From Candidatus Woesearchaeota archaeon (GTDB taxonomy: Archaea; Nanobdellota; Nanobdellia; SCGC-AAA011-G17; JAGVZY01), in contig JAGVZY010000013.1 of the NCBI GenBank assembly GCA_018302225.1, forward strand, positions 1-59,716: a stretch of 59,716 nt of DNA, read 5' to 3'. Made by a program: the position numbers and the translations under genes. The notes under the pieces are model-generated. The model saw only the letters and a list, made by a program, of their open reading frames with translations. It did no database searches and had not been told where the DNA came from. Every line of letters starts with the position of its first letter. Position 1 is the stretch's first letter. Below are positions 13,787 through 59,716 of the stretch, piece after piece.

Positions 13787-14533
13787 ATGCCAGAACCATC
13801 AAACTTACCCTTTAAAAGATTGCCTAAAAAAGGGTATTTTATTGATTTTAATCCAAGTAATAATTCAAAATTTAATTCAGAAGATTTAATTATTCTTGAA
13901 GGAAAGCAGCACAAAAACTCTGCAGGAATTGTAAAATATGAATATCCTGATGAAAATATTTCTATCAATAGATTCTTTTTTGAACAAGATTGGATTAATC
14001 AACATGTTTTATCACAAAAACAAAATTTAGCAATGCTTACTATTAGGGAATTTTTAGATTTTCTAAAATTATTAAAATCAGAAGAAAAAGTTTATTATTC
14101 AAATGGAAAAAGAGTCCCAAGGTTAAAAGTTACTCAGCTTTATAATACAATAACTACACAAAAAGAGCCTTGGAGATCAGAATATCTTGATGCAGATTTT
14201 AGAGTAATAAATAAAATTTTACATATAAATTATGAACATAGATTAAATTTTAAAACAGGAAAATTAGAACCTAAATATTCTCAACCTTTAGAAGAATGTC
14301 TAATGCAAAATACTCCAATTAGTTTAAATTTATTATTAGAAAATGCAAACTATCAAGGTTTACCTGCTAAAAATATTAAATCTAGAGATTTAGATTATTT
14401 TGCCCCACTTAAAGATGATAATTCTGTCGCGTGGTTCAGTGCGGGTTCCGATAGGGTCAGCCTTAATTGCAATTGGGTTCCTTCTGACTCGAATTCCTCG
14501 CTCGGGGTACGTGCAAAACAAGTAAGGCCATAA
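13787..14533 (+). CDS. DGR variable protein 2 (remote target)
   Basis: A 248-aa protein whose last 36 residues are encoded by a diversity-generating variable repeat. Residues 1-212 show no named domain, but they align with the VR1 gene product at 56555: both have a (T/S)(I/P).EF segment near 100 and a 'LE.CLM' segment near 180, and both reach the VR at residue 213 with the identical DNSVAWF. The variable end, AWFSAGSDRVSLNCN to SSLGV, fits the C-type-lectin-like end of DGR targets (family knowledge; the fold is inferred). No signal peptide or membrane span is seen. It stands between the FKBP gene and L1, far from the reverse transcriptase at 57705. Confidence 0.85.
   Translation: MPEPSNLPFKRLPKKGYFIDFNPSNNSKFNSEDLIILEGKQHKNSAGIVKYEYPDENISINRFFFEQDWINQHVLSQKQNLAMLTIREFLDFLKLLKSEEKVYYSNGKRVPRLKVTQLYNTITTQKEPWRSEYLDADFRVINKILHINYEHRLNFKTGKLEPKYSQPLEECLMQNTPISLNLLLENANYQGLPAKNIKSRDLDYFAPLKDDNSVAWFSAGSDRVSLNCNWVPSDSNSSLGVRAKQVRP
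14423..14509 (+). repeat. DGR variable repeat VR2
   Basis: 87 nt matching the template repeat at 57556-57663 once a 21-nt TR segment is skipped. I count 11 substitutions (9 in the body, 2 at the 3' tail), all at TR adenines: 4 A-to-T and 7 A-to-G. All C, G and T positions of the TR are conserved. Altered codons include AGG to TGG, AAT to AGT, GAT to GGT, AAT to GTT and ACT to TCT. The shared 3' end TTCCTCGCTCGG is the likely initiation-of-mutagenic-homing site. Confidence 0.93.
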
Positions 14534-55544: not shown

Positions 55545-56558
55545 ATGGATACAAGAGAATTATTCCAACAAATAAATCCTAATTTTTTAAAAGCCTTGAA
55601 ACAAGGAGGCTATGAAGGTGGTAAGTTCAAAGAACTTACTGATAAAATAAATTATAATCTAATAGTTGTAGATGAACTTCCTAATTGTGTTCCTGCAGTA
55701 AGAGCCCAACTATTTAACTTATTTGATGGTTTTATTGAAATAGATGGAAAACATTATCCTATTGGTGCAAATTATTGTATAGGCCTAGCTACAGGAAATA
55801 TAGGTCAAGAATATACAGAATCTTCAAATGATCTGGGTAGAGCGTTAAAAGATAGAATGCACTTAATCATTGATACAGATTATTTTAGACCAAAACCTAT
55901 AGATACTTTAGACATGTTAGTTGAAAATAGAAATCCTAGAGTAAACTTTCAGCAAGAAACTCAAGATAGGACAAAAGAAATAATTGACAAATATAATCAA
56001 ACTTCTGAAATCGCCGTGCCCATTGAAAAATATTTAATCGCATCTTACTTAGTTCATGGTTTGGATTATTTAGACAACAAATATGGTGGAAGCAAAATGG
56101 GTTTAAAATCTGGCTGGCCAAATAAATTGGAAGGTCACGAAAAGGGTTCTGATGAATCGTTAACATTGCCTATTTCCTCAAGAGCCGCGAAATCAATTGT
56201 TTCACTAAGTCAAGCATTAGATCAAATAACTATAGAAAAAGGTGCAAAAGATTTAGATTATTTTAATTCAATGATGAACGCTTTTAAGTTTGTTTCAGCT
56301 TATTCAGGAATATTAAATGAATCTGCAGTCATGCAAGATTATAATGAAGATCATTATAGTGCAATAGATGCTGTTATCGCCACGACTCAAACACAATTTA
56401 AAGAAAAAGAAGCTCATATTATGGAAGGATTCAACTCAGTAAAACAAGGAGAGAAAGATCAGAACATACTTGGTTTATTTAGAGGAAGATGGTCTTTTAT
56501 GAAAAATATTTTAGAAGCTGAAGCTGAAAGACGAGCGCAATTAAAAAATAAAAAATGA
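55545..56558 (+). CDS. N-terminally truncated MoxR-like AAA ATPase
   Basis: 337 aa. Walker B NYNLIVVDELPNCVPAVRAQ (D43, E44), sensor 1 GLATGN (N85) and the arginine-finger region LGRALKDRMHLI (R104) match MoxR-type AAA+ proteins. The preceding part with Walker A is missing; the protein begins only about 35 residues before Walker B, against roughly 100 in full members. It could not bind ATP normally alone. The C-terminal 220 residues are helical and unlike the standard MoxR lid. Its stop overlaps the VR1 gene start by 4 nt (ATGA), so it is translated with the DGR target; a full-length form may have worked with it. Confidence 0.75.
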   Translation: MDTRELFQQINPNFLKALKQGGYEGGKFKELTDKINYNLIVVDELPNCVPAVRAQLFNLFDGFIEIDGKHYPIGANYCIGLATGNIGQEYTESSNDLGRALKDRMHLIIDTDYFRPKPIDTLDMLVENRNPRVNFQQETQDRTKEIIDKYNQTSEIAVPIEKYLIASYLVHGLDYLDNKYGGSKMGLKSGWPNKLEGHEKGSDESLTLPISSRAAKSIVSLSQALDQITIEKGAKDLDYFNSMMNAFKFVSAYSGILNESAVMQDYNEDHYSAIDAVIATTQTQFKEKEAHIMEGFNSVKQGEKDQNILGLFRGRWSFMKNILEAEAERRAQLKNKK

Positions 56559-57340
56559 CACTAGACATACCAGATAAAATGTTCGGAAAGGATATGAAAG
56601 AAGCACACAAGCAGTATTTAGAAAACTCTAAAAAAATTAAACAAACAACTCCTCAACCAGAAATTCAAAATGAAATAAAAGTTTCAGCAAATATAAATCT
56701 TGCAGATTATGTAAGAATGCCAAATTCAAATATTTTAATTTCAAAAGAACAAATGTTTAATAATTTAGATTTTAAGGATAGTCATTTCAAACTTGCAGAA
56801 AATAATCTTTACATGCCTTCACCTGCTGAATTTATGCCTTATTACTTAAATGTAATTCAAGCAAAACAAGGAAAGCAAATAATTTATGATGGAAATAATA
56901 AACCTCTAGACCCAACTGAAATTGATAGCCTATATCAAAGATTAAGTAAAAATTGTTGGGTTTGGTTAAATGCCGGATTTAAGAAAGATCAAAAAGATAA
57001 TTTCAGTTTAATTAATTATTCAGTTAAAAATAATAGTTTAATTGAAACTCCAAAATCTTTAGAAAAATGTTTAATGAAAGATGGTTTTGCTGATTTAGAT
57101 TTTAATAAGCAAGGTTTAGCAATTAAACCTTCTAAAATTAATGAATATAAAAAAAATAAAAATATTTATTTTTCACACCCAAGAGATAATTCTGTCGCGT
57201 GGTTCAATGCGGTTTCGGGTGGGTCTACCTTGGTTGCTATGGGGATCCTTCTGTCTCGTATTCCTCGCTCGGGGTATATGGATGCGCCGAAGGCGCGTAA
57301 ATGCAAAATTCAACTGTTGCAAACTTGGAAAGTTTATTAA
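56555..57340 (+). CDS. DGR variable protein 1, frame-shifted in its variable end
   Basis: Open to 57340 (261 aa), paralogous to the remote target at 13787. Residues 1-212 include YMPSPAEFMPYYLNVIQ and SLEKCLMKDGF, each with a counterpart in the other gene, and the VR begins at residue 213 in both (DNSVAWF). After NAVSGG the frame is wrong: compared with TR and VR2 one base is missing near 57212-57216. Restoring a base gives GWVYLGCYGDPSVSYSSLGV and an in-frame TAA at 57298-57300. The restored end matches the lectin-like end of VR2. Either the copy was inactivated during retrohoming or a base was lost in assembly. ATGA overlap with the ATPase gene. Confidence 0.85.
   Translation: MTLDIPDKMFGKDMKEAHKQYLENSKKIKQTTPQPEIQNEIKVSANINLADYVRMPNSNILISKEQMFNNLDFKDSHFKLAENNLYMPSPAEFMPYYLNVIQAKQGKQIIYDGNNKPLDPTEIDSLYQRLSKNCWVWLNAGFKKDQKDNFSLINYSVKNNSLIETPKSLEKCLMKDGFADLDFNKQGLAIKPSKINEYKKNKNIYFSHPRDNSVAWFNAVSGGSTLVAMGILLSRIPRSGYMDAPKARKCKIQLLQTWKVY
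57191..57276 (+). repeat. DGR variable repeat VR1
   Basis: 86 nt matching TR 57556-57663 after skipping the 21-nt TR segment. I count 14 substitutions at TR adenines in the body (8 A-to-T, 6 A-to-G) plus 2 A-to-G at the tail. In addition there is one deleted base and one non-adenine change in the TTCCGATAGG block. Its 3' end TTCCTCGCTCGG is identical to TR and VR2. Confidence 0.93.
57284..57296 (+). other. Hairpin downstream of VR1
   Basis: GCGCC-GAA-GGCGC, a perfect 5-bp stem with a 3-nt loop, starts 8 nt after the VR1 end. In phage DGRs a short GC hairpin just past the homing site increases retrohoming. It also covers the stop of the restored frame. VR2 has no matching hairpin. Confidence 0.5.
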
Positions 57341-57555
57341 ATTTATTTAGTTCTAAAATTCACGTCCTAGACTTCCTAGAGATCTTCTATTCCCATAGAA
57401 AATCAATGAAAGGATACAACTTGGGCTACACGCAGTTTTATAGCGCATAATTTTTTATGTCATAAAATTCAATAACAATAATTAGTAGTGATGAAAACCT
57501 TGGGTAAGTTTGAGTGAATATTAAAGTTATGGTGAAACTTAATAAAACTGCTACA
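57341..57555. other. Non-coding spacer before the template repeat
   Basis: 215 nt without a supported gene. It presumably holds the 5' part of the template RNA and its promoter. No Avd-like accessory gene was found here or elsewhere near the DGR. Confidence 0.4.
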
Positions 57556-57663
57556 TCTGTCGCGAGGTTCAATGCGGATTCCGATAGGGTCAACCTTAAT
57601 TGCAATAGGAATCCTACTAACTCGAAATCTTCAAAAAAAGACGAGACTTCCTCGCTCGGAATA
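57556..57663 (+). repeat. DGR template repeat (TR)
   Basis: 108 nt, non-coding, 41 nt before the reverse transcriptase. It matches VR1 and VR2 with adenine-specific differences. Read in the VR frame, adenines fall at first or second codon positions (AGG, AAT, GAT, AAC, AAT, ACT, AAC), maximising amino-acid change. It carries a 21-nt A-rich segment (about 57627-57647, including seven consecutive A) that neither VR has. The 3' end CTCGCTCGG marks the homing site. The apparent 64-aa reading frame over it (57514-57708) is not a gene. Confidence 0.93.
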
Positions 57664-57704
57664 ACCCTTGTTGTCTTTGGACTTAATATCCATTTCAGAT
57701 TACG

Positions 57705-58772
57705 ATGAAATCATACAAAAATTTATATTCAAAAATCTGTTCAATTCAGAATTTAGAATTAGCTTTTAAAAAAGCTAAAAAAGGAAAGTCAAGCCTATTT
57801 TATATTAAAGACTTTCTTAAAAATAAAGATTTAGAGTTGCAAAGATTAAAGAGCGAATTAGAATCTAAAGAATACCTTCCCCGTCACTTAGAAAAATTTA
57901 TTATAAGAGATCCCAAAACTAGAGTTATTCATTCTTCACATTTTAGAGATAGGATAGTTCATCATGCGTTGGTTAATCTCATTGAACCTATTTTTGAAAA
58001 AACTTTTATTTATGATTCTTATGCAAATAGAAAAGGTAAAGGTACATTAAAAGCTATAAAAAGATTTGATGAGTTTAAAAGAATAATAAGCCAAAATGGA
58101 AGAACTCCTAAAAGCGCAAAAGAAGAGTCTATGGTTTTAGGATATATCTTTAAAGCAGATATCAAACATTACTTTGATAGTGTAAATCATCAAATTTTAC
58201 TAAAAATTATTAAGAGAAAAATAAATGACAAAAATACCCTATTCCTCATCGAAAAAATATTAAATAATTTTAATACTAAAATTAAAGAAAAAGGAATGCC
58301 TTTAGGAAACTTAACTTCTCAGTTCTTTGCAAATGTTTATCTTAATGAACTAGATTATTTCATAAAACATAAACTTAAAGCAAAATATTACATAAGATAT
58401 GTTGATGATTTTGTAATCTTACATTCAAATAAAGAACTCTTGGAAGAATACAAAACTAAAATTGGTTATTATCTTAAAAATCTAGATTTAGAATTGCATC
58501 CAGAAAAGTCTAAAATCTTTCCTTTACACAAAGGGGTAAGCTTTTTAGGTTATAGAATCTTCTACTATCATAAACTATTAAGAAAAAGAAATCTTACTCA
58601 ATTTAAAAGAAAATTTGAAAGTTTAAAGCAAGACTTAGAGCAAGGACTAATAGCCCACGAAACCTTTTTAGGGAGTATTGAAGGATGGCTAGGTTATGCA
58701 AGGTGGGCAAATACTTATAAATTTAGAAGACAAATTATAAAAGAAGTAAATAACGTCTCTAATAATCTTTAG
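57705..58772 (+). CDS. DGR reverse transcriptase
   Basis: 355 aa. Reverse transcriptase palm motifs: FKADIKHYFDSV (D152), GMPLGNLTSQFFANVYLNELD (197-217, the DGR-type block), active site YVDD (232-235) and GVSFLGYRI (277-285). There is no endonuclease, maturase or integrase domain, and the C-terminus ends soon after the thumb, as in DGRs and unlike group II introns. The TR lies directly upstream on the same strand, and VR1 upstream of that. It makes adenine-error cDNA from the TR RNA that replaces VRs. Its substrates here are the genes at 56555 and 13787. Confidence 0.95.
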   Translation: MKSYKNLYSKICSIQNLELAFKKAKKGKSSLFYIKDFLKNKDLELQRLKSELESKEYLPRHLEKFIIRDPKTRVIHSSHFRDRIVHHALVNLIEPIFEKTFIYDSYANRKGKGTLKAIKRFDEFKRIISQNGRTPKSAKEESMVLGYIFKADIKHYFDSVNHQILLKIIKRKINDKNTLFLIEKILNNFNTKIKEKGMPLGNLTSQFFANVYLNELDYFIKHKLKAKYYIRYVDDFVILHSNKELLEEYKTKIGYYLKNLDLELHPEKSKIFPLHKGVSFLGYRIFYYHKLLRKRNLTQFKRKFESLKQDLEQGLIAHETFLGSIEGWLGYARWANTYKFRRQIIKEVNNVSNNL

Positions 58773-58952
58773 CCCTCACTAAAAAACTAATTTATTTCTT
58801 AAGTATTACTTTCTCCGACATCCTTTCTTATCTTAGTGTAACCTTATTGTAACTAGAGAACAAACCACCTAATAGTGGTCGATTAGACACTCAAAAATAT
58901 CCTTTTGTCTACGACTCTCTTTATAAATCAAGCCCAGCACAGGACACAAAAA
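58773..58952. other. Spacer between RT and integrase
   Basis: 180 nt without a gene. It contains a hairpin ACCAC...GTGGT (58864-58879) and a TATA box TTTATAAAT (58920-58928) 24-33 nt before the integrase ATG at 58953, so the integrase is transcribed on its own, apparently leaderless. Confidence 0.5.
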
Positions 58953-59716
58953 ATGAAACTAGACCCACACCAACATGAAGCCATGTATAAAGGCTGGCGT
59001 AATAGGGGCTCACAAATTAAAGGGGTAAATCAGCCAAGTTGTGACCTTATTATACATTTTCTTGAAGACATGGAAATCGGAGCTAATGTTTCTCCAGTTT
59101 CAAAAAAAGGCCCACGAGGTTATGGCAGGTTAAGAAACTTAAAATCAAAAATGCATACTCTTACTATAATTTTTCAAGAAGAAATAGGCTTACATTCTTT
59201 AGCAGATTTAGTTAGCAAAGAGAAAGAATTATTAGTTTTAATAAATCGTATGAGAAGAGGAGAAATTTGTTCTGAAAGATATTATCATCAACCTCTCAAA
59301 GCAGTAGGTAATTATGTCCAAATACTTAAGACCTTTTGGCACTGGTATCAAAGAATAAAAAAGAAAGAAGGGATAGAGATTCCAGATATAACATCAGACT
59401 TAGATTGCAAGGATGCAAAACCTAAATTTAATTATTTCACAATAGACCAAGTTAAAAAAATGTGCGATGTTTCAGCTTATGATTATAGAGTTTTGATGAT
59501 GTTTCTATTTGATTCAGGAATAAGAGCGCCAACAGAATTAATGAATGTTAGAGTTTCAGATTTAGAATGGGACTCCAAAGGAAATTATTATATTCTAACT
59601 ATCAGGGAAGAAACAAGTAAAACTTTTGGAAGAAAAATAAGACTTTTACTTTGTTCAGAAATACTTAAAGGCTATTTAAACAAACTACAACTAAAAGATC
59701 ATGAATATATTTTTAC
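58953..59716 (+). CDS. Tyrosine recombinase/integrase (cut by window end)
   Basis: 254 residues visible; the gene runs off the right edge. The N-terminal part (1-160) is a SAM-like, DNA-binding core region. The catalytic domain starts near FTIDQVKKM, with the first catalytic Arg in FDSGIRAPTELMNVRVSDL (R191) and the beta-hairpin Lys in SKTFGRKIRLLL. The HxxR and Tyr motifs lie beyond the window. It would integrate or excise the island. A tRNA-Gln at the other side is a plausible attachment gene. Confidence 0.85.
   Translation, partial: MKLDPHQHEAMYKGWRNRGSQIKGVNQPSCDLIIHFLEDMEIGANVSPVSKKGPRGYGRLRNLKSKMHTLTIIFQEEIGLHSLADLVSKEKELLVLINRMRRGEICSERYYHQPLKAVGNYVQILKTFWHWYQRIKKKEGIEIPDITSDLDCKDAKPKFNYFTIDQVKKMCDVSAYDYRVLMMFLFDSGIRAPTELMNVRVSDLEWDSKGNYYILTIREETSKTFGRKIRLLLCSEILKGYLNKLQLKDHEYIF

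Follow-up and report, generated by a model that had tools for sequence, protein, structure and literature searches.

A putative tRNA-type intron in the template repeat of an archaeal diversity-generating retroelement

In diversity-generating retroelements (DGRs), a template repeat (TR) is copied with its adenines randomised, and the cDNA is established to overwrite variable repeats (VRs). The locus described here raises the question of why 21 nt within its TR are absent from both of its VRs. The window, which is the whole stretch of 59,716 nt that was analysed, is contig C13 of an archaeal assembly of 814 kb in 21 contigs. The RT gene, the repeats, the RNA elements, the target genes and the EndA gene described below lie on its + strand.

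The element and its repeats

The reverse transcriptase (RT) gene occupies positions 57705–58772 at the right end of the window, encodes 355 residues and is the single PF00078 copy of the assembly. The YVDD motif and the LGNLTSQ block are present, as the earlier note had read them (YVDD and GNLTSQFFAN), and the protein matches RVT_1 in Pfam (E = 5e-25) and PHROG 1423, a reverse transcriptase family (E = 5e-115). In a quick tree, it groups with DGR RTs, with an SH-aLRT support of 100 for its separation from the RTs of group II introns and retrons. It falls inside an archaeal clade with a support of 99, beside bacterial and phage DGR RTs for which TR/VR pairs of their own were detected in the same analysis. 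Among PDB chains, the RT profile matches 8ub7 best, with 211 bits, whereas no group II RT scores above 131 bits; the file names 8ub7 only 'Reverse transcriptase', and we take it to be the RT of the BPP-1 DGR. The score against TIGR04416 is 157 bits, below the cut-off of 300. The tree and the PDB match agree that the element is a DGR and not a group II intron or a retron, which is how the earlier note had classed it. As that note also stated, DGRs have already been reported from DPANN archaea (PMC8144416, PMC4372165), so that the presence of a DGR is by itself ordinary.

The description of the element as complete needs qualifying, since the stretch from VR1 to the RT gene contains no recognisable Avd-type accessory protein; it holds the RT-16 RNA described below. 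The sole open reading frame between VR1 and the TR encodes 49 residues with no match in Pfam or NCBIfam. Avd accessory proteins are common in DGRs, and not universal.

The TR spans positions 57556–57663, upstream of the RT gene, and has the 108 nt first attributed to it. VR1 (57191–57276) is adjacent, VR2 (14423–14509) lies 43 kb away, and both align to the TR without 21 of its nucleotides, so that the copied part of the TR amounts to 87 nt. No third VR was found in the 814-kb assembly, where the best match after the TR and the two VRs has an E-value of 0.05. With the 21-nt segment left out of the counts, 15 of the 22 TR adenines and 1 of the 64 other bases are changed in VR1, in addition to the deletion of TR A57586 (Fisher p = 1e-10). 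VR2 differs at 11 of 23 adenines and at none of the 64 others (p = 5e-8). Both VRs pooled, 26 of 45 adenine comparisons are changed versus 1 of 128 others. The substitutions are thus concentrated on TR adenines and not spread over the four bases, as previously noticed, and the one exceptional, indel-linked site can now be described as the 1-nt deletion of VR1 together with the neighbouring substitution C57582G. The same bias is found when the window is pooled with the first relatives, their TR/VR pairs having 808 of 1,494 template adenines changed versus 75 of 3,154 other bases. An IMH/IMH* pair is present at the 3' end, with CGGGGTA in both VRs and CGGAATA in the TR. Both VRs have presumably been rewritten through retrohoming by this DGR.

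VR1 is carried by target gene 1 (56555–57340), an open frame encoding 261 residues, and VR2 by target gene 2 (13787–14533), which encodes a predicted C-type-lectin-like protein of 248 residues. The target proteins have no convincing sequence match in Pfam, PHROG or the PDB. An AlphaFold2 model of the VR2 protein, made with 16 relatives, reaches a pLDDT of 85.5, and its top PDB matches in a fold search are C-type lectins, with a weak E-value of 0.05. Because of the base lost from VR1, the C-terminus of target gene 1 (its last 40 or so residues, within 57191–57340) no longer follows the TR frame. Read in that frame, VR1 would end with ...SSLGVYGCAEGA*, which resembles the relative L058 (...SGLGVFGCAEGA). 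The loss of one A may be either a real event or an assembly error.

The segment absent from the variable repeats

The 21-nt segment (57627–57647) divides the TR into a 5' exon (57556–57626), which differs from both VRs in an adenine-specific manner, and a 3' exon (57648–57663), which ends with IMH*. In archaeal bulge-helix-bulge (BHB) introns, a 4-bp helix pairs the end of the 5' exon with the end of the intron, and 3-nt bulges are found at the cuts (PMC4090602, PMC7714728). The minimum free energy fold of positions 57600–57670 is exactly the structure expected from this description, ((((...((((......)))))))), with an ordinary energy (z = -0.6); a shorter context gives another minimum-energy fold. 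The central helix H consists of an exon strand CUCG (57621–57624) paired with an intron strand CGAG (57642–57645). It is followed by a 5' bulge of three adenines (57625–57627) with the predicted 5' cut site after the second, and by an intron helix h' (UCUU/AAGA) closed by the loop CAAAAA (57628–57641). The predicted 3' cut lies 2 nt downstream of the intron strand. In a canonical BHB, the 3' bulge is bounded by an exon-exon helix; this helix is weak in the window, with 2 bp, as it is in most relatives, and reaches 7–9 bp in L058 and L090. By its position and fold, the segment looks like a tRNA-type (BHB) intron. The spliced TR would read SVARFNADSDRVNLNCNRNPTNSNSSLGI, the junction falling within an AAT codon.

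RT loci were gathered from archaeal relatives, and from bacteria and phages in IMG/VR; an expanded search within the order yielded four new genomes only. The TR/VR pairs were detected with a script blind to changes at TR adenines, followed by gapped alignment. Of the 105 archaeal loci that differ in their TR regions, 23, about a fifth, contain TR-only inserts, 27 in total, which measure 15–45 nt and lie at several positions. The TRs of L081, L090, L099 and L100 contain two inserts each. The contig of L081 is labelled 'bacterium' in spite of its two BHB-type TR introns, and its RT groups with those of Aenigmatarchaeota; the label is probably wrong. None of the 56 bacterial and phage DGR pairs has a BHB insert, a single 13-nt gap at a TR edge being devoid of the 4-bp helix. 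Gaps at the TR edge in L045, L046, L068, L103 and L152, as well as a 13-nt codon-repeat gap in L275, were disregarded as artefacts of the alignment.

The inserts were compared for the BHB register, in which the upstream exon and the intron each contribute a stretch of four bases that stops 2 nt short of the 5' and the 3' boundary, respectively, and these two stretches pair. Such a 4-bp helix, perfectly paired, is found in 26 of 28 inserts, these being the 27 above and that of L269. The latter (33 nt, at -108 from the RT) forms a similar bulged hairpin with boundaries that do not follow the BHB rule, and was counted as a failure. Shifted segments of the same size in the same TRs have the helix in 7.6% of cases, and the corresponding binomial probability of 2e-27 is overstated because the introns at site 1 share ancestry. 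The insert junctions are ambiguous by 1–6 nt. Offsets of 2 and 3 nt fit equally well, and asymmetric ones fit at most five inserts. Sequence alone thus cannot fix the exact position of the putative cuts, 2 or 3 nt past the helix being both suitable.

Depending on the insertion site, the central helix is CUCG/CGAG, CAGG/CCUG, CACG/CGUG, CGUG/CACG, GACG/CGUC, CUUC/GAGG or UGCG/CGCA, which means that the pairing is kept and not the sequence. At a matching site in L081 and L100, the helix is altered on both strands (CACG/CGUG versus CGUG/CACG). The intron helix h' also covaries, the second pair being C-G in 11 of the 18 site-1 introns and U-A in the other 7. The central helix appears in the predicted fold of 20 of 27 introns in the shorter context. 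Many close relatives have no TR insert at all, and the intron state requires at the fewest 10 changes on the RT tree, indicating that introns were gained and lost repeatedly.

Splicing of the template and alternative explanations

Immediately 5' of the TR, positions 57374–57559 match the RT-16 RNA of Rfam (RF03019, E = 2e-14), and strong matches directly 5' of the TR were also found in 18 of the 19 relative loci searched. The Rfam output for RF03019 comes without a stated function; here the RNA appears as the leader of the DGR template RNA, of which it is probably the 5' part in archaea.

Taking the insert and its relatives together, we consider it likely, and hold with good confidence, that the locus is a DPANN-type DGR whose template RNA contains a BHB intron, and that mutagenic reverse transcription would follow the removal of this intron by the tRNA-splicing machinery. 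The template transcript would comprise the RT-16 RNA and the two TR exons, the second with IMH*, separated by the 21-nt intron. EndA, the host endonuclease, would make both cuts 2 nt beyond the 4-bp central helix, and the exons would be joined by RtcB. The DGR RT would then copy the spliced template with randomisation of the adenines, and the cDNA would overwrite VR1 or VR2.

The segment could also stay in the template RNA if the RT jumped across a hairpin during cDNA synthesis. RTs can skip hairpins, and a hairpin is possible in every insert. A jump at the base of the hairpin should drop both strands of the outer stem, however, whereas CUCG is kept and CGAG removed, with equal offsets at both boundaries, in the register observed in 26 of 28 inserts. 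Where a TR has several VRs, their junctions are moreover compatible with a single site. The VR of L037 at -3014 from the RT is also informative. It retains a copy of the intron with A-to-G changes and a 3-nt loss, which adds five residues, GSRDG, in frame. This VR apparently arose from homing of an unspliced template, and its adenine mutations indicate that the RT can read through the hairpin, which disfavours obligatory skipping. Hairpin skipping by the RT is regarded as improbable.

Overall, about 31 of the 32 VRs lack the intron, a count in which one VR, the second of L035, was judged by eye. Adenine mutations are found in VRs on both sides of the missing segment. At the site-1 loci, the 11 nt of the VR that follow the intron position have 0.09 non-adenine mismatches to their own TR versus 3.9 to the TRs of other loci, and 4 of 11 exon-2 adenines are mutated in VRs. 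The match to the own TR and the mutated exon-2 adenines imply that intron-lacking cDNA spanning both exons was made after the lineages split. The window alone, with both VRs devoid of the segment and VR1 frameshifted, would be compatible with a late entry of the segment into the TR after the last retrohoming, the VRs being older and the element now inactive. This is very unlikely, as the same site is occupied in many lineages, the VRs have kept pace, on either side of the segment, with the divergence of the TR at their locus, and random inserts would not all show the BHB geometry. It is equally unlikely that the segment serves the template as a functional RNA element, for instance a hairpin for priming or RT binding, which escapes copying because of the topology: site 1 does lie between the variable part and IMH*, near the expected start of the cDNA, but the mutated exon-2 adenines beyond the segment place it within the span of the cDNA, other inserts lie in the middle of TRs, sometimes two in one TR, and many close relatives have none.

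Of 29 intron lengths, 21 are divisible by three (p = 2e-5 versus one third), a pattern that splicing of the template alone does not predict; the count covers the 27 TR introns of the window and its relatives and those of L031 and L041. A possible reason is that in-frame introns are tolerated, since an unspliced template may occasionally home as in L037.

Host machinery, known systems and neighbouring features

A candidate cutting enzyme is encoded at positions 149–661 of the window. It is a tRNA-splicing endonuclease EndA of 170 residues (PF01974, E = 1e-30; PF02778). Its closest PDB chain is 3iey_A, presumably Nanoarchaeum equitans EndA, as suggested by the NEQ261 partner chain. RtcB is encoded on contig C7 of the assembly, and ARAGORN predicts introns of 17–60 nt in seven tRNA genes of the genome. 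A second EndA subunit was sought in the genome and none was found, a single subunit of 170 residues being detected. EndA enzymes with a single type of subunit (α4) have been described as strict for the canonical BHB (PMC4090602). The lone EndA subunit, together with the 2-bp exon-exon helix, is the weakest point of the proposed mechanism.

The DGR of the Bordetella phage BPP-1 shares with that of the window the adenine-specific mutagenic retrohoming and a related RT (8ub7, taken to be the BPP-1 enzyme). In BPP-1, a self-splicing td intron was reportedly placed experimentally in the TR and lost on homing. The case of the window would be by analogy a natural version of this experiment. It differs from BPP-1 in that no Avd is recognised, and in that the putative intron is natural and of the BHB type instead of group I. 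The TR inserts share with the archaeal BHB introns of tRNA, rRNA and cbf5 mRNA, which are EndA substrates (PMC7714728, PMC2738675), the 4-bp central helix, a predicted 3-nt 5' bulge, the retention of the exon strand and a length of 15–45 nt. They differ by their location in the template RNA of a retroelement and by an exon-exon helix that is often weak.

The closest known elements are the DUSEL4 DGRs of DPANN/Nanoarchaeota (Paul et al. 2015, PMC4372165). They have in common with the window a TR near the RT gene, a GGGGT/GGAAT IMH pair (described as TGGAAT/TGGGGT), a hairpin with a GRA loop after the VR and orphan target genes. In the window, the hairpin GCGCC-GAA-GGCGC, with a GRA-type loop, is found at positions 57284–57296, shortly 3' of VR1. 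No TR intron was found in the passages of that paper that were consulted. No description of a BHB-type intron in a DGR template, and no paper combining DGR and BHB terms, was found in the literature searched. The occurrence of BHB-type template introns across DPANN lineages is likely, though not certain, to be new.

If the proposed splicing is correct, natural introns would here be reported for the first time from DGR templates, judging from the papers searched, and the passage of DGR homing via a processed RNA would have been demonstrated from sequence only. A retroelement RNA would join the short list of EndA substrates, and targeted hypermutation would be tied to tRNA processing. The system would also provide a clean assay, as an intron-less VR would prove passage through spliced RNA. 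A more speculative idea, which we hold to be doubtful, is that template splicing is a working part of the DGR. The element would then need the host tRNA-splicing machinery to arrive at a template that can be used, and the intron would help to shield the TR from being overwritten by its own mutated copies, since it interrupts the homology between the TR DNA and the cDNA.

On the other side of the RT gene, a tyrosine-recombinase-like gene (58905–59716) adjoins the DGR and runs off the end of the contig; its match in NCBIfam is of the XerA type (E = 3e-4) and does not reach the cut-off.
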